Part shown: one piece after another, positions 4,312 through 18,629 of the stretch | Layout of the letters: the number at the start of each line of letters is the position of its first letter | How positions within the stretch are numbered: the first letter of the stretch is position 1 | Source of the DNA: Lysobacter sp. BMK333-48F3 | GTDB taxonomy: Bacteria; Pseudomonadota; Gammaproteobacteria; Xanthomonadales; Xanthomonadaceae | DNA: 64,000 bases | Assembly (NCBI RefSeq): GCF_019733395.1 | Contig: NZ_JAIHOO010000001.1 | Span: 2,427,001 to 2,491,000 of the forward strand | Direction: 5' to 3' | Position numbers and translations under genes: made by a program | Notes under the pieces: generated by a model | Database searches by the model: none | Told to the model about the DNA's origin: nothing | The model's input: only the letters and a program-made list of their open reading frames with translations

Positions 4312-4722
4312 TCAGGCCGTGGCCGGTTGCTTGGCGGTGTCGACGACGGCAGTGATCGCCTTGGACACCGCTTTGACTTTGCCGGCCTGCAACGCGATCG
4401 TCAGGGCCACCACGGCGCCGGCGATGCGCAGCGCACGTTTGATCTGGGCGATGTCCTGCAGGGCGTCGCGCGCCTCGCCGATCGCGCCGGACAGGTCCGC
4501 CGCCGCCTGCGCGGCGCCCTCGCCCAGCAGCAAGGTGCCGTGCTTGCGGAACAACACCACGAACATGCGCACCTGGTCTTCGTGGCGTTCGAGTTCGCGC
4601 GCCTGCTCGTCGTCCACGTCCGGGGCGGTGATCCGCAACTCCAGAATGCGGTCGGCGATGTCGGAGAAAGTGCGGGCGATGGCGTAGGCCGCTTCGGCCT
4701 GGATCTTGATCGATTCGGACAT
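4312..4722 (-). CDS. Hypothetical small helical protein
   Basis: 136 residues, not recognised. The N-terminal two thirds is charged and predicted helical (SESIKIQAEAAYAIARTFSDIADRILEL, then an ELERHEDQVRMFVVLFRKH stretch). One hydrophobic segment near residues 100-118 (ALRIAGAVVALTIALQAGK) could be a membrane helix or packing helix. There is no signal peptide. It lies 16 bp downstream of the lipoprotein gene on the same strand and is probably co-transcribed with it. It ends 7 bp from the convergent oxidoreductase gene. A GGAGGCTCCC ribosome site precedes the start. Confidence 0.7.
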   Translation of the reverse strand: MSESIKIQAEAAYAIARTFSDIADRILELRITAPDVDDEQARELERHEDQVRMFVVLFRKHGTLLLGEGAAQAAADLSGAIGEARDALQDIAQIKRALRIAGAVVALTIALQAGKVKAVSKAITAVVDTAKQPATA

Positions 4723-10771: not shown

Positions 10772-12541
<1,770 letters not shown>

Positions 12542-12628: not shown

Positions 12629-14047
12629 CTACATCAGCTCGTCGAGCAGGTCGCGGTTCAAGGGCGTCACGTAGGCGGCCATGTCCAGCACGGTGAAATC
12701 GCCGGTGATCCTGGAGCGGGCGAACTGCTCGATCACGCCGACGCATTGGTTGCGCTGCTTGGGCGGCAGGAAACGCAGGATCGGCACCATGCGGCGATGG
12801 CCGATGGCTTCCCACCGCGCCACCGCATCCAGGCTCGCCATCCACTGCAACTGGTGCTCGTCGGCCATGCCCAGCGCCGCGTGTCCGCCGATGGCGCGCA
12901 CGCGCTGCTCGCGCAGTTGCACGATGTGGCGGTGCCTGGACAGGCGGCTGTCGGAACGGGCGAAGCCGATGTCGCCGCTGGCCGGGCCGTAGCTGGTCGG
13001 CACGTCCTGGGCGGCGGCGCCGAAGCCGAAGCCCGACAGCAGTTGTTCCTGCTCCTGCAGGCTTTCGCTGACGGTGCTGAGCGTGCGCATGCGGCTGCCG
13101 CCGAGCAGGGTCTCGCAGGGGAAGAAGTAGCCGAAGCCGTCGAACACGCGCTCGTGCAGCGCCGCGTACTGCCGTTGCCGGCCGCCGCGGACGGCCAGCG
13201 CGGCGTCGACCGCTTCGATCAGCTCGGGCGAGCCTTCCAGATCGGTGTCCGGGTCCAGCATCAGCACGACCCGCGGCACGATCATCTCCTCGACCAGGTG
13301 GATCTGAGTGACTTCGCTGCGGCGCAAACGCTCCAGGTCGTCGCGGAATCTGGCCGCCAGGGCGAAGCCGTTGACGCCGCCGCCGGCGTTGGCGTTGTGG
13401 ATGCTGCGGGTGTGCAACTCGTGCAGGACCCGGCTGGCGGTGGCGCTGATGTTCCAACTGGCGGTGTAGGGGACCCCGCCCGAATGCGGCGGCCGTTGCG
13501 GATGCCGGTAGATCACCGGCGAGCGCGGCGAGCGCGCGCCGAACAGGTGGTCGTTCGCCTTGGGGCCGAAGCGCAGGCCGCGGTCGAGCCGGCGCGCGCT
13601 GAACAGCGCGGCGATCGTTTCCAGCGGCAGGGCGGTGAATTCGTCCGGGTCGCGCACGTTGGCCGCGGCCATCCGGGTCTGCCATTGCGGCAACAAGTCC
13701 GGAGCGTCGGCCTCGTTTCTCAGCCCCCACAGCGCCTCGCCGGGCCGCGCCTCCGGCGCGGTGACCCGCGGCACGGGGCGCGGTTGCGCGGCCGGCTTGG
13801 CCGGCGCCTGCGCGCGCGGCGCCGGCCGGACCGTGATCGTGCGGTCCTTGTCGATCGCCTCGGCGACCGTGACCTCGCCCTCGATCGACGGGTCCAGGCC
13901 GGCGTTGCCGAAACGGAAACGCTCGGCCGGCAGCATTCCGGCCTCGGCCGCGAGCCGTTCGCGCAGTTGTCGCAGCGTGGTTTCCGGAGTCAGGCGCAGG
14001 ACGGTGTCGCGGTCGGAGGCGCCGGCGAATGCGATGGTGACGAACAT
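12629..14047 (-). CDS. MACPF (perforin-like) domain protein with ubiquitin-like N-terminus
   Basis: 472 residues, no signal peptide. Residues 1-74 (MFVTIAFAGASDRDTVLRL, then TLRQLRERLAAEAGMLPAE) read as a ubiquitin-like beta-grasp domain. A Pro/Ala linker (75-100) follows. Residues about 180-460 fit the membrane-attack-complex/perforin fold. FGYFF-x6-GG at 305-317 matches the Y-G-T-H-F-x6-GG signature in spacing. A Ser/Gln-rich stretch (STVSESLQEQEQLLSGFGFGAA) fits the second membrane-inserting helical cluster. The late block AIGG, WMASLDAVARW and MVPILRFLPP matches the GG...W..S...P..LL ending of the family. The two central signature residues (T, H) are replaced by Y and F. It is last in a three-gene cassette. 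A pore-forming role is inferred; target and export route are unknown. Confidence 0.7.
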   Translation of the reverse strand: MFVTIAFAGASDRDTVLRLTPETTLRQLRERLAAEAGMLPAERFRFGNAGLDPSIEGEVTVAEAIDKDRTITVRPAPRAQAPAKPAAQPRPVPRVTAPEARPGEALWGLRNEADAPDLLPQWQTRMAAANVRDPDEFTALPLETIAALFSARRLDRGLRFGPKANDHLFGARSPRSPVIYRHPQRPPHSGGVPYTASWNISATASRVLHELHTRSIHNANAGGGVNGFALAARFRDDLERLRRSEVTQIHLVEEMIVPRVVLMLDPDTDLEGSPELIEAVDAALAVRGGRQRQYAALHERVFDGFGYFFPCETLLGGSRMRTLSTVSESLQEQEQLLSGFGFGAAAQDVPTSYGPASGDIGFARSDSRLSRHRHIVQLREQRVRAIGGHAALGMADEHQLQWMASLDAVARWEAIGHRRMVPILRFLPPKQRNQCVGVIEQFARSRITGDFTVLDMAAYVTPLNRDLLDELM

Positions 14048-14089
14048 GCGGAAGCCTCGGTTACGCGATGCGTGGAACGGGCGCCGCCG

Positions 14090-14867
14090 CTCAGTCCGGG
14101 TCGACGACGAAGAAGTGCACCTGCAACGCGCCGATGCGCTGGTGTTCGGGATCGTCTTCGGCCTGCACCTGGATGCGTTCGAAGCGCTGTTCGGCGTTGC
14201 CGTCGGCCCAGATCACGCCCGGATTGACCCGCACCTGGCCCTCGGTCGCGGCCTCCAGCGCGTGGCCGCGCCGGGTATCGATGCGTCCGGCTGCGGCCGG
14301 CGCGGTGTCGATGTCCGGCGCGGCCGTCGGCAGGGGCGAGGCGAAGCGCGGGTGGTTCTCGTCGTAGACCCGTCCGGAGACGGGGTCGAGAAACTGGCGC
14401 ACCTTCCAGGTCGAGATTTCGCAGCGCCACAGCCGTTGCAAGGCATCGCGGTCGCGCGCATCGCCGAGCCGCGCGCGCATCGACTCGACCACGATCAAGC
14501 GCCGGTCGTGCTGGAACCGGCGCACGGTGGCGGTGCGGTGGTCCCATTCGTCGGGGCGGTCGACCGCGTAAAGGCGGTCGACCACCGGCCCGGCGTCGGT
14601 GGCGATGCGGAAGCCGAAGCCGAGGGGCGAGGGCGAACGGACCTGGATCGACAGCGCCGCGCCGCGGCTGACCGCGACCAGGTTCGGGAACACGCGACCC
14701 GGTGCGGCCTGCGGCAAGCGCGCGTCGGTGAACATCAGCGCCTGCGCGCCACGATTGCGGCGGCGCGCGTCGGCATCCTCGACGTTGAGGCCGAAGCGCA
14801 CGAACAGGTTGTCCTGGTCGCGCAGCCAGTCGGCGGGTGCGCCGTCGAGGACATGAGACCCAGCCAT
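14090..14867 (-). CDS. Unknown protein of the MACPF cassette
   Basis: 258 residues, not recognised. No signal peptide or membrane helix. The first ~130 residues look beta-rich (NLFVRFGLNVEDADARRRNRGAQ, then LVAVSRGAALSIQVRSPSPLGFGFRIA). A more helical middle (DALQRLWRCEISTWKVRQFLD) leads into a beta-rich tail ending HRIGALQVHFFVVDPD-like (exactly QRIGALQVHFFVVDPD). It lies 11 bp after the 120-residue gene and 42 bp before the MACPF gene, all leftward, so the three are probably one transcription unit. By analogy with two-component perforin-like toxins it might be a partner or regulator of the pore protein; this is conjecture. Confidence 0.6.
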
Positions 14868-14878
14868 GGGCGCGGCCC

Positions 14879-15241
14879 TCAGATGCGGTTGATCGAAAAG
14901 CTGGCGATGGTGCCGCGGACGTTGAAGGTCGCGGTATGGCCATTGGGCGCAAAGGCCACCGAAGGGCCGTTGCGCCGGCCGCCGCCGACTGCGCCCACGC
15001 GGACGCGAACCCGATCGCCCACTTGCAGCTTGCGGCCGTGGAAGAGCAGCGTGGACAAATCGACGCTGCGGGTCTGGCCGAGCGGGAACGCGCCGGCGGC
15101 GAGGGCCTGGCTTACCGCCGTGTCGCCGTCGAGGCGCTGAACGACGAAGCGCATGGAGAACCCGGCGTTGTTGATGCAGGCGATGTGCTGGACGTGCAGT
15201 TCGGGCTGGCCGGATTCTGCGGGATTCGCGGACGGCTGCAT
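14879..15241 (-). CDS. Small beta-rich protein, first gene of the MACPF cassette
   Basis: 120 residues starting MQPSANPAESGQPELHVQHI. The ATG at 15241 has GAGG eight bases upstream; a longer open frame further back is Arg/Pro-rich and unconvincing. The body alternates hydrophobic and polar residues with glycines at turns (INNAGFSMRFVVQRLDG, GDRVRVRVGAVGGG, NGHTATFNVRGTIASF), suggesting a beta-sandwich. The size and position are reminiscent of aegerolysin-like membrane-binding partners of fungal MACPF proteins, but I see no aegerolysin sequence signature, so the family is left open. No signal peptide. Confidence 0.6.
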   Translation of the reverse strand: MQPSANPAESGQPELHVQHIACINNAGFSMRFVVQRLDGDTAVSQALAAGAFPLGQTRSVDLSTLLFHGRKLQVGDRVRVRVGAVGGGRRNGPSVAFAPNGHTATFNVRGTIASFSINRI

Positions 15242-15706
15242 GGCGGGGCCTCGTGCGCGGAGAGAAAACTGTTCGGGTCGATAAGGGGAACGCCGCTGCG
15301 GGAAGAGCGTGAACGCATCCGCGGCCCTGCGGCCGCTGCCGCGGCGCGATAGCCGGTTATGGCCGTCGACGGACGGCCCGGAATGGGTGGGTTGAGGCCA
15401 TCGATACGGCGGCGGCCCGAATCCGCGCGTGGTCGAAGCGGCCGGAGCGGATCGCCGGGACGATCCGGGAGTGCGAACCGGTCGCAAGACTGGAACCCTG
15501 CGCGGGTGTCGGCACGCGGCCCGATTCGCGCAGGCGAAGACCTCGAAGCAACGCTCTCGACCGAAAAGTCGTGTAGACGAATGTGTAGTGGGTAGAACCA
15601 CTTACACCGCTCGTCGGGCCAGCGCGATTATTTCGTTGCACATTCGACATGTCACATTTCTCATGCGCGATAGTGCAGCCGTCGATCGACAAGGACGGGA
15701 TGCGAA
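15242..15706. other. 465-bp divergent intergenic region, MACPF cassette / virB5-like gene
   Basis: It must hold promoters for both flanking units. The half nearest virB5 is less GC-rich. TTGCAC at about 15633 with TCTCAT 17 bp on is a weak rightward promoter candidate. A dyad GTGTAGTGG...CCACTTACAC (about 15578-15604, one-base bulge) resembles an operator. Open frames on both strands here are Arg/Ser-rich and have no ribosome site, so I see no gene. Confidence 0.5.
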
Positions 15707-16459
15707 ATGGAACTTCATTCAGGCAAACAACGAGCGCACAGCCGCCGTGCCAGGCGCTGGTTGTGGCCGCTGCTATTTGTGGCGATGCCGGCGGCCGCGC
15801 AGCAGACGGTGCACGACCCGATCAGCTTCGTCGAGCAATTGCGCCAGGTCGCGTCCGATGCGATCGAGTTCGGCAAGACCGCCAAGCGCTGGGGCGAGAC
15901 CGCCGACCACTACCAGCAGCAGTTGATCCGGGTGCAGCGGCTCAACTTCGGCCAGGCGCAAATGCACGACGACTTTCCGTCGCGGGCGGCCGACCACGGC
16001 ATGGACGACCTCTGCCCGAGCGATGCCGGCCCGCGCGAGCCGGTCGCCGCCGCGCTCAAGCTGGCGCTGCCCAAGCTCGACGGCGACCTCGTCCGCGAGC
16101 AACTGTCGCTGTGCCAGCGCCGGGTCTATGCCGAGAACATGAAGTACAACGAATCGGTACGGATGCTGCGCACCCTGCTGGCGCGCAACCAGGAGTTCCA
16201 GTCGCTCGAGCTGCAACGCGACGCCGCCGGAACCAGCCAGGGCGCGCTGGCCGCCAACGACAACGAAGCCCAGCGTTTCATGCTGCGCACTTCGATGGAG
16301 CTGGACTACTGGCAGGCGCGGATGAAGGCCTACGACGACTACATCGCCGCGCTCAAGGCCGACCAGTCGCGCCTGGCCAAGCGCGCGCTCGACGGCAAGA
16401 AGGGCACGATGATAGGCAACGTGATCCAGGCCGGCGTGCTTGCGGCCGCGCTGCGCTGA
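15707..16459 (+). CDS. VirB5/TrbJ-like type IV secretion protein
   Basis: 250 residues. A signal peptide ends about residue 31 (LLFVAMPAAAQQ). The mature protein is almost entirely helical (DPISFVEQLRQVASDAIEFGKTAKRWGETADHYQQQLIRVQRLNF), with one internal Cys pair (DDLCPSD, LSLCQRR). Length, export signal and helix pattern match VirB5/TrbJ proteins, which sit at the tip of the T4SS pilus or in the periplasm. It is followed 21 bp later by a VirB6-like gene, the usual order. No other T4SS core genes are nearby. The family call rests on pattern and neighbour, not on a strong motif. Confidence 0.7.
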   Translation: MELHSGKQRAHSRRARRWLWPLLFVAMPAAAQQTVHDPISFVEQLRQVASDAIEFGKTAKRWGETADHYQQQLIRVQRLNFGQAQMHDDFPSRAADHGMDDLCPSDAGPREPVAAALKLALPKLDGDLVREQLSLCQRRVYAENMKYNESVRMLRTLLARNQEFQSLELQRDAAGTSQGALAANDNEAQRFMLRTSMELDYWQARMKAYDDYIAALKADQSRLAKRALDGKKGTMIGNVIQAGVLAAALR

Positions 16460-16480
16460 ACGGACGGAGGGCGAAGCGCG

Positions 16481-17626
16481 ATGGACCTGCCGTTCGAAGA
16501 ATTCTCCCGCTGGCTGGCGCCGCAGACCCAGTCCGGCGTCGTCGACTACGCGTTCTACAAACTGATCAACAACTACTTCACCGAGGAGATCAACGCCTTC
16601 GGCTTCGCCCTGATGCGGCGCATGATGAGCTGGGTCGCCAGCGTCGCCTTCACCCTGGCCACGCTGTACTTCCTGGTCATGGGCTACCGCGTCGCCACCG
16701 GGCAGTCGCGCGAGCCGATGATGGGACTGGTCGTGAACGGCATGAAGGTCGCGCTGGTCCTCGGCGTGGCCACCACGATGAGCTTCGGCAGCCTCGACCT
16801 GTACCGCATGCTGACCACCGGCCTGGACCAGGAGATCCACCAGGCCGTCAGCGGCAACCCTGGCCAGACCGCGGCCGAGGCGGTGGACGAGAACCTGGCC
16901 TACATGCAGATCGCGATGAACGCGATCGATGCGGTGCGGATCGTCGACGGCGACGACGAGACCCGCGAGCAGAAATCGCGCGCCCTGCTGATGGCCGGCT
17001 TCGGCACCGCCAGCGTGCCGATGACAGTCGGCGCGCTGATGCTGATGTACAAGTTCGGCATCGCCTTCTTCGTCGGCCTGGCGCCGCTGTTCATTCTGTG
17101 CCTGATGTTCGACCAGACCCGCGACCTGTTCCGCAAATGGCTGATGTCGGGCATCGCCACCTTCTTCTCGATGGCGGCGCTGAGCATGATGTCGGCCATG
17201 GCGCTGAAACTGACCGGCAAGGTCGCGGTCGCGTTCTGGGTCTCCAAGGCCATCGGCGGCATCCGCGGCCTGGAAGCCGAGGGCATGTCCTCGCTGGCGA
17301 TCCAGCAGGGCGGCTTGGGCCTGATCCTCACCGTCGCCCTGGTCACCGTGCCGCCGATGGTGGGGATGTTCTTCCATGGGGCGCTGGGGAACTTCATGCA
17401 GTTCTCGGCGTTTGGGGGGCAGGGTGGGGGTGGTCAAGGCGCGAGCAGTAGCGCTACATCCGGCATGCCGGGTTACACAAACGGCGGCGGTCATTCAAAT
17501 CGTCCCAGCGCCGATCCAGGATCCCAGCGCCGCGAGAGCGTGGGCGATATGTCCGGCCATGGCGCGCGTTACACACTGGGTGAATCGATCGATCGGTCCA
17601 ACGGAAACGAGATCAAAAAGAGATGA
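16481..17626 (+). CDS. VirB6/TrbL-like type IV secretion inner-membrane protein
   Basis: 381 residues. After a short periplasmic N-terminus there are about six membrane segments between residues 55 and 310 (SVAFTLATLYFLVMGYRVA, MKVALVLGVATTMSFG, TVGALMLMYKFGIAFFVGLAPLFILCLMF, ATFFSMAALSMMSAMAL, LGLILTVALVTVPPMVGMFF). The block FVGLAPLFILCLMFDQTRDLFRKWL carries the conserved Trp and Asp/Arg region of VirB6. A Gly/Ser/Asn-rich polar tail (residues 320-381) is presumably disordered. VirB6 forms part of the inner-membrane channel. The stop overlaps the next start (ATGA), linking it to the first DUF4189 gene. Confidence 0.85.
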   Translation: MDLPFEEFSRWLAPQTQSGVVDYAFYKLINNYFTEEINAFGFALMRRMMSWVASVAFTLATLYFLVMGYRVATGQSREPMMGLVVNGMKVALVLGVATTMSFGSLDLYRMLTTGLDQEIHQAVSGNPGQTAAEAVDENLAYMQIAMNAIDAVRIVDGDDETREQKSRALLMAGFGTASVPMTVGALMLMYKFGIAFFVGLAPLFILCLMFDQTRDLFRKWLMSGIATFFSMAALSMMSAMALKLTGKVAVAFWVSKAIGGIRGLEAEGMSSLAIQQGGLGLILTVALVTVPPMVGMFFHGALGNFMQFSAFGGQGGGGQGASSSATSGMPGYTNGGGHSNRPSADPGSQRRESVGDMSGHGARYTLGESIDRSNGNEIKKR

Positions 17627-18114
17627 AACTAAACGTCCTGATATCGCTCACCACAATTGCGCTATGCGTGGGTCAGGTCCGTGCTGAAGGAGGCTGCCCG
17701 GCCGGCATGATTCCGGCCCAAGGAACGAATATTTCCTCGTGCATGCCCATATCCAGTAGCGGGGAAGAAGCTGCGCCATCGTTGGGGCCGCGCTGGGCGC
17801 CCAGTTGGGGAGCGACGGCGCAAGATCCAGAGAGTGGCGTCATGGGAGCTGTAGCCGATAAGCCGAACAAGCGCAGCGCCAAGCAGGGGGCGGTTGCGGA
17901 CTGTCTTTCCAGAGGCGGTGTCAAGTGCAAAGTACAGGGCGTGTACAGCAATCAATGCATCGTGACCGTGCAGGGCGGTGGATTCGAGAACGATGTATAT
18001 GCCGAATCGATCGAGCGCGCGACTCAGCAGGGAATGGATGCCTGCCGGAAGAAAGGCCGTAGTAATTGCCGGGTGTATTACCAAGCTTGCAGCTTGCCGA
18101 TCAAGATTCGCTAG
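17623..18114 (+). CDS. DUF4189-type secreted cysteine-rich protein, copy 1
   Basis: 163 residues. A cleavable signal peptide ends at QVRA, and the mature chain starts EGGCPAGMIPAQGTN. A linker precedes a compact domain (about 85-163): KQGAVADCLSRGGVKCKVQGVYSNQCIVTV ... CRKKGRSNCRVYYQACSLPIKIR. The spacing of its cysteines suggests three or four disulfides, consistent with a periplasmic location. It is translationally coupled to the VirB6-like gene and is followed by a paralogue. DUF4189 proteins often sit near X-T4SS genes; whether they are accessory or immunity factors is not known to me. Confidence 0.8.
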   Translation: MKLNVLISLTTIALCVGQVRAEGGCPAGMIPAQGTNISSCMPISSSGEEAAPSLGPRWAPSWGATAQDPESGVMGAVADKPNKRSAKQGAVADCLSRGGVKCKVQGVYSNQCIVTVQGGGFENDVYAESIERATQQGMDACRKKGRSNCRVYYQACSLPIKIR

Positions 18115-18143
18115 CTATCAAATGGCCGCGCTTGGACGCCGCG

Positions 18144-18629
18144 ATGAAATGGAGAGTCAGGGCGTTGGTGCTATCCGGACTGGCGATTCCCGCTTTCACC
18201 TTCGCCGAAGGCGGCTGCCCCACCGGCATGACTCCCTATCAAGGATCGAACGTCGCCTCATGCGGCCCGATCCCGGTATCGGGCGATACCTGGGCGGCCG
18301 AGCCGCAGTGGGCGGATCGCTGGGGGGCGATTGCCGGCGATGCAGGCCGCGGCGTCGCTGGGGCAGCGGTAGAGCGACCCCGCAAGCACGACGCCGAGAA
18401 GGACGCCATCGCAGCATGCCGGGCGCGTGGCGGCGTCCGTTGCGTCATCGAAGTCACCTACGCCAACCAATGCGTCGTGACGATCCGATGGGCAACCGGA
18501 ACCCAACACGTCAGGGCGGTTTCGATCGATAGCGCCACTGAATCGGGGCTTGCGCTCTGCCGCCAACGCGGCGATCGAGGGTGCCGTGTTCGCTACCAGG
18601 CCTGCAGTTTCCCGGCCCGCATTCGTTGA
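18144..18629 (+). CDS. DUF4189-type secreted cysteine-rich protein, copy 2
   Basis: 161 residues, start taken at MKWRVRALVLSGLAIPAFTFA, which gives a proper signal peptide; an earlier in-frame ATG at 18066 lies inside the previous gene. The mature start EGGCPTGMTPYQGSN and the C-terminal domain (EKDAIAACRARGGVRCVIEVTYANQCVVTI ... CRQRGDRGCRVRYQACSFPARIR) repeat the layout of copy 1 at clearly lower identity, so this is an old tandem duplication. It lies 29 bp downstream of copy 1. The linker between the two blocks is the most divergent part. Confidence 0.8.
   Translation: MKWRVRALVLSGLAIPAFTFAEGGCPTGMTPYQGSNVASCGPIPVSGDTWAAEPQWADRWGAIAGDAGRGVAGAAVERPRKHDAEKDAIAACRARGGVRCVIEVTYANQCVVTIRWATGTQHVRAVSIDSATESGLALCRQRGDRGCRVRYQACSFPARIR

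Follow-up and report, generated by a model that had tools for sequence, protein, structure and literature searches.

Positions 12629-15241 of the window, the whole stretch of 64,000 nucleotides from Lysobacter sp. BMK333-48F3 that was analysed, hold a conserved cassette of three genes, A, B and M, the last of which encodes a protein whose membership of the MACPF superfamily is well supported by sequence comparison. All three genes lie on the minus strand in the order A-B-M, with a gap of 11 bases between A and B and of 43 bases between B and M. Gene A (14879..15241) encodes 120 residues modelled as a beta-sandwich and is a candidate membrane- or receptor-binding subunit, gene B (14091..14867) encodes 258 residues of a family without assignment, and gene M (12629..14047) encodes 472 residues comprising a ubiquitin-like domain, a Pro-rich linker and a MACPF domain. 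The cassette may be a split, multi-component MACPF pore-forming system in which A binds the membrane, M forms the pore and B assists or restrains M, a reading to which we give an even chance. The earlier note on this DNA had described a three-gene cassette, a MACPF protein beginning with a ubiquitin-like domain and two unrecognised partners, and this description was borne out: the order A-B-M is kept in 15/15 intact loci examined, across three genera, both domains of M were recovered as set out below, and neither window A nor window B has a match in Pfam or NCBIfam at E ≤ 1.

Window M matched the Pfam profile MACPF_1 (PF22693) with an E-value of 3.1e-6 and 27.5 bits, which is exactly the cut-off of that profile. 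The match extends over residues 243-434 (12746..13321, minus strand) and profile positions 81-264 of 265, with residues of about 105-242, the first part of the MACPF domain, lying outside it. Orthologs of M matched the profile at E ≤ 1 in 10/10 cases (best 2.5e-9), and two distant orthologs score well over the cut-off, at 40.9 and 52.2 bits. The ortholog of Marilutibacter (Lysobacter) chinensis reached 9.4e-14, that of Luteimonas endophytica 2.6e-10 together with the classical MACPF family PF01823 (28.3 bits against a cut-off of 21.5), and the Chitinimonas homologue P0019 gave MACPF matches of 5.2e-9 and 3.2e-8. The MACPF signature is defined as aromatic-G-x-aromatic-x6-GG; in M it reads FGYFF-x6-GG at residues 305-317 (13097..13135, minus strand), which is invariant in 14/14 alignment rows, and the form FGY[FY]F-x6-GG is present in 19/19 homologues. 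The segment that follows the GG, about residues 318-375 (12923..13096, minus strand), is by its position a candidate second membrane-inserting region. PF22693 is placed by precomputed annotation on 8/11 of the first-found M homologues, the relatives P0012, P0013 and P0019 are named 'MAC/perforin domain-containing protein' by NCBI, and the UniRef name of P0002 begins 'Ubiquitin-like domain-con...', so the MACPF and ubiquitin-like domain assignments are not new. P0011 (277 residues, from a Streptomyces contig, 74% identical and taken as Lysobacter contamination) was omitted from alignments A1 and A4, P0004, a near copy of P0003, from alignment A4, and P0058, an 81-residue fragment, from alignment A5.

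Residues 1-76 of M (13820..14047, minus strand) are predicted to adopt a ubiquitin-like beta-grasp fold, as indicated by the predicted model and structure comparison, and are connected to the MACPF domain by a Pro/Ala-rich linker of about residues 77-104 (13736..13819, minus strand) whose length varies across orthologs. Gly-Gly is absent from residues 67-90 in 19/19 M homologues, P0011 being without the domain and P0012 being numbered from an earlier start. A conjugated ubiquitin was rejected, because the domain continues into the Pro-rich linker and the MACPF domain with no processed C-terminal Gly-Gly. The module was also found on a divergent B, and P0019 carries a second ubiquitin-like copy ahead of its MACPF domain.

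A divergent pair, B' (L119:5262-6380) followed directly by M' (L119:3944-5191), was found in G518, a genome of the same family that falls in the genus group to which the Luteimonas ortholog belongs. In a scan of the frames of nine loci, the B profile picked out B' (2.7e-6) and the M profile M' (1.7e-7). By sequence, M' is a clear homologue of pleurotolysin B, reaching its structures at 7.6e-13, and it matches MACPF_1 at 1.1e-14 with nearly the whole profile covered; the M profile itself matches pleurotolysin B weakly (E 0.015). For M' the ubiquitin-like module comes solely from profile comparison, because a PDB search with its N-terminus gave no ubiquitin (best E 0.78, for other proteins). Only 38 residues of M and 50 of M' follow the MACPF match, too few to hold a C-terminal binding domain on either protein. 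A profile search of this G518 region gave no A-like gene. The NCBIfam pore-forming toxin BSAP5a matched M' at 0.01 and the Chitinimonas M at 0.0054, far below the cut-off, and was not used.

Full-length M is present in 12/20 genus genomes, all 12 of which carry A-B-M beside groEL, and the order is kept in three more intact loci from two other genera (L121, L122 and L123). Of the 15 intact loci, 14 directly adjoin groEL, L121 and L123 among them; at L122 the cassette adjoins 32 residues copied from the groEL C-terminus, with the end of groEL itself 4 kb off (L122:2-454 and 4482-4577), possibly a trace of insertion or duplication. A is retained together with a 3' remnant of M in G004 and stands alone in G008, G010, G011, G012 and G015, with two copies in G010 and G015 and an extra broken copy in G012, and none of A, B and M has a match in G006 or G013. 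Across 297 family genomes, M occurs in 14 (13 intact plus the G004 remnant), B in 14 (13 with intact M plus G518 with M') and A in 21 (13 with M, 6 without intact M and 2 weak, in G040 and G699), B being found only alongside M or M'. The M search of these genomes omitted G518, M' having come from scanning the B' locus. When window M alone was compared with 100 relatives, 13 matched, own genome and remnant counted, all of them in the genus, and the named records with M at a comparable locus are from Lysobacter (five) and Luteimonas (one). In the source genome, which is 5.2 Mb in size and 99.99% complete, M was matched once.

Proteins with the MACPF_1 domain look sparse in this phylum, with matches at E ≤ 0.01 in 2/398 sampled genomes, source genome included, a count that is a lower bound because the sensitivity of the model is borderline here. 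A six-frame MACPF_1 search passes in 5/20 genus genomes, in one of them through a different gene. As separate observations, G010, a Lysobacter-genus genome without M, encodes another MACPF protein of 849 residues (L067:889-3435, PF01823 at 6.9e-10), and G214, from another family of the phylum, encodes a 657-residue protein (L070:1381-3351) with a sub-threshold MACPF_1 match.

The median ratio of nonsynonymous to synonymous proportions (pN/pS) is 0.65 for A, 0.60 for B and 0.57 for M (28 pairs, 8 genomes); as controls, groEL gave 0.18 (28 pairs) and the hydrolase-like gene on the flank 0.43 (21 pairs of 7). The set comprised 8 sequences per gene out of the 12 genus loci with the cassette, and 7 for the hydrolase control, partial genes included. 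No stop codons were found in 24/24 A, B and M sequences. The three genes are constrained yet faster-changing than their neighbours.

The AlphaFold2 model of A, built from 40 sequences, has eight strands, a mean predicted local distance difference test (pLDDT) value of 90.1 and a predicted template modelling (pTM) score of 0.80, with residues 1-11 below 50; 40 homologues of A were found besides window A itself. Foldseek returned two matches below 0.001 for this model, both pneumolysin (6.7e-4 and 7.1e-4), and 31 of the best 50 rows are by title cytolysins of the pneumolysin family, with the remaining 19 including PUD-1, transthyretin and relatives, allantoin synthase and PepT1; the query TM-scores are 0.29-0.51. 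With VIA-align, PepT2 ranked first (9.6), followed by listeriolysin O (9.2), perfringolysin O (9.0), the entry 6nal ('Gram Negative Toxin', 9.0), HGSNAT (8.6), AlgF (8.5), the isolated membrane-binding domain of pneumolysin (8.0) and transthyretin (7.9), with 83-92 residues aligned at root mean square deviations of 2.8-3.8. By its predicted model, A is thus a member of the sandwich class that includes domain 4 of the cholesterol-dependent cytolysins (CDCs). CDC domain 4 carries a Trp-rich loop motif; window A has no tryptophan and therefore no such motif. Among 19 A members, Pfam gave CDC48_2 (0.011), TOBE_3 (0.021) and one more family, in 2 members each, and the A profile searched against the PDB gave a tubulin chaperone alone (E 1.0-1.5), all of which were judged chance matches. 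A viral structure library yielded one match below 0.001, p59 of Myxococcus phage Mx8 (Foldseek 1.9e-4, 21% identity), and a phage search for an A-like protein found nothing. A-like single genes are present on conjugative plasmids of Nitrosomonas stercoris and Cupriavidus taiwanensis (L127, L128 and L129). In G040 (L118:4810-7508) a divergent A-like protein adjoins an A-like domain that is N-terminally fused to a flavin adenine dinucleotide (FAD)-binding, sugar-lactone-oxidase-like protein. A-like matches in G699 and in a second place of G601 were dropped, as they sit in a protein that by eye looks like a fimbrial usher.

B gave no match in the PDB at E ≤ 5, and profile comparison found it unrelated to A and to M. 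Among 12 B members Pfam matched DUF1402 (0.1) in 2, judged to be chance, and neither B nor B' had a match on the plasmids searched. G017 holds a weak B-like match that is broken by a stop (4.7e-5).

From these results we infer the functions of A, B and the tag, the mode of release, the target and pore formation itself. The pore would be formed by M, whose MACPF domain follows an N-terminal ubiquitin-like module and is not accompanied by a C-terminal binding domain. M would need help in reaching the membrane, which makes A a natural candidate for the binder by analogy with aegerolysins and with the platform of the two-component CDC-like (CDCL) toxins; A may act as a stand-alone membrane- or receptor-binding subunit, serving M as domain 4 serves CDCs or as an aegerolysin serves pleurotolysin B. 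B, placed in this scheme because it is constant with M, would either aid the assembly of M on A or hold M inactive beforehand, and the ubiquitin-like module may be a non-conjugated docking or sorting tag. No signal peptide was evident on the cassette proteins on inspection by eye, and they may leave the cell without a classical signal, either when cells lyse or through a contact-dependent system; the source genome carries a type VI sheath gene at a distance of 1.5 Mb, which indicates only the possible presence of such a system. Lysobacter is predatory and antifungal, and the membranes of prey or competitors are therefore the likely target on which the proteins would act. A bolder version, which we regard as doubtful, is a split perforin/CDC machine with a free-standing, domain 4-like A, a bare-MACPF M and the beta-grasp module as a docking code without conjugation; carried by M, by the divergent B and in two copies by the Chitinimonas M, the module would bring the components together to be loaded, exported or assembled in order.

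The case for a split pore-forming system has several weak points. The AlphaFold2 model of M (10 orthologs) has a mean pLDDT of 40.1, too low to show the MACPF sheet; of the fold forecast in the earlier note, the ubiquitin-like beta-grasp was obtained, whereas the bent sheet with two helical clusters was not. The function proposed for the cassette rests on homology and linkage, and the earlier suggestion of an undescribed pore-forming system stands as to the absence of any description of the cassette in the open-access papers found, and pore formation stays a proposal. Among 5.39 million open-access PMC papers none joins Lysobacter and MACPF, and 4 mention MACPF together with a ubiquitin-like domain, none of them describing such a protein as judged from titles and abstract openings. 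Within its sandwich class, A is not singled out as belonging to one family: its CDC domain 4 matches tie with unrelated beta-sandwiches, and the sequence searches of Pfam and the PDB did not pick out the CDC family. The G040 fusion joins an A-like domain to an oxidase-like protein, no annotated MACPF neighbour lies within 3 kb of the A-like genes on the three plasmids, and A occurs without intact M in 6/20 genus genomes. This last count, with two copies of A in two of the six, and the generic beta-sandwich fold of A favour another view, in our judgement an unlikely one, in which M is a real MACPF protein acting alone and the adjacent A and B serve different functions, A for instance binding a ligand independently and B acting in the cytoplasm as a chaperone or inhibitor of M. 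It accords poorly with the preservation of A-B-M order in all 15 intact loci over three genera and with the restriction of B to genomes with M or M'.

A pleurotolysin-type pair, in which a far-diverged aegerolysin (A) partners a pleurotolysin B (M), appears improbable. M' is a clear pleurotolysin B homologue, and A is a small beta-sandwich of the kind that aegerolysins are said to be in PMC9505663, but Pfam assigns 0/19 A sequences to the aegerolysin family at E ≤ 1, no aegerolysin is among the 50 structure matches listed for A, although one may lie beyond that list, and M ends too early for a C-terminal region such as pleurotolysin B has. The split system also competes with a role outside lysis. 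Some MACPF proteins are non-lytic, for example in development, adhesion or envelope biology, and such a role for M, for which the lack of activity data, the lack of a signal peptide evident by eye and the one fixed chromosomal place in carriers can be cited, seems to us improbable, since the patchy distribution with decay (M remnant in 1/20 and no M in 7/20 genus genomes) and the raised pN/pS of 0.57-0.65 relative to groEL and the hydrolase-like gene fit antagonism better, although they do not prove it.

The cassette is flanked by a convergent groEL (10901-12541, plus strand), the end of which lies 87 bases from the end of M, and on its other side by a type IV secretion system (T4SS)-like gene pair on the plus strand from 15707. 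The T4SS-like, groEL and hydrolase-like labels of these neighbours were assigned by eye. The stretch 15707-18629, between A and an alpha/beta hydrolase-like gene, holds VirB5-like and TrbL/VirB6-like genes, also labelled by eye, and a pair of similar small proteins, and this group is unmatched in the 18 other loci compared, two of which contain a 3 kb gap outside the comparison. A promoter scan gave one promoter-like site 5' of A (15627-15655; 0.3 expected) and a terminator scan two terminator-like sites against 2.0 expected, neither of which was used as evidence.

If the cassette does split binding from pore formation, it would offer a simple system for how MACPF/CDC proteins gained or lost binding domains, and the ubiquitin-like module would raise a new question on the sorting of such proteins without signal peptides. 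Were the module a docking code, bacteria would be using ubiquitin-like folds, without conjugation, to tag the parts of a pore-forming weapon for assembly.

Among known relatives, tblastn with M reached plasmid-borne proteins of Pantoea ananatis and Kosakonia cowanii in 4 records (best 1e-10), two of them annotated MAC/perforin. These proteins share 24-30% identity with M across the MACPF region in all 4 records and match the M profile at 8.7e-21 and 5.7e-14 in the two regions examined (L077 and L078); unlike M, they are about 1000 residues long, with an HNH endonuclease gene downstream of them in both regions. No match to A, B or the ubiquitin-like module was found in L077 or L078, and in the Pantoea plasmid region two proteins annotated as beta-sandwich or immunoglobulin (Ig)-like lie upstream of the MAC/perforin gene. 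An aegerolysin recruits pleurotolysin B, and the pleurotolysin A/B pair of Pleurotus (aegerolysin and MACPF) resembles the cassette in that a MACPF protein is coded with a small, separate beta-sandwich partner, and in that M' reaches pleurotolysin B at 7.6e-13. The cassette differs in that A gives no match to the aegerolysin family and M lacks the C-terminal domain, and it adds a ubiquitin-like N-terminus and the third gene B. AfIP-1A/AfIP-1B of Alcaligenes faecalis, as presented in PMC9505663, likewise pairs a small binding protein with a larger partner in the same orientation, but AfIP-1A is an aegerolysin, and the MACPF domain of AfIP-1B is reported there as insignificant. The CDCs (perfringolysin O and pneumolysin) are single-chain proteins, whereas the parts of the cassette are on separate proteins, and neither A nor M matches the CDC family in Pfam; the likeness, which unrelated beta-sandwiches share, is that of the A model to their domain 4. 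MACPF and CDC pore folds are regarded as related in PMC11169675, where the CDCL platform is described as recruiting a pore-forming partner that lacks domain 4. A PDB profile search with M listed no CDCL chain, and membership of the CDCL type, with two related pore proteins, was rejected, as only one cassette gene matches a MACPF family, B resembles neither A nor M, and M has a single match in the genome. According to PMC11169675 and PMC11952106, the CDCL platform resembles a four-domain CDC, whereas the candidate platform of the cassette is a lone 120-residue beta-sandwich; the division of labour between a platform and a domain-4-less pore subunit is what the cassette would share with CDCL-L/CDCL-S of Bacteroidota.
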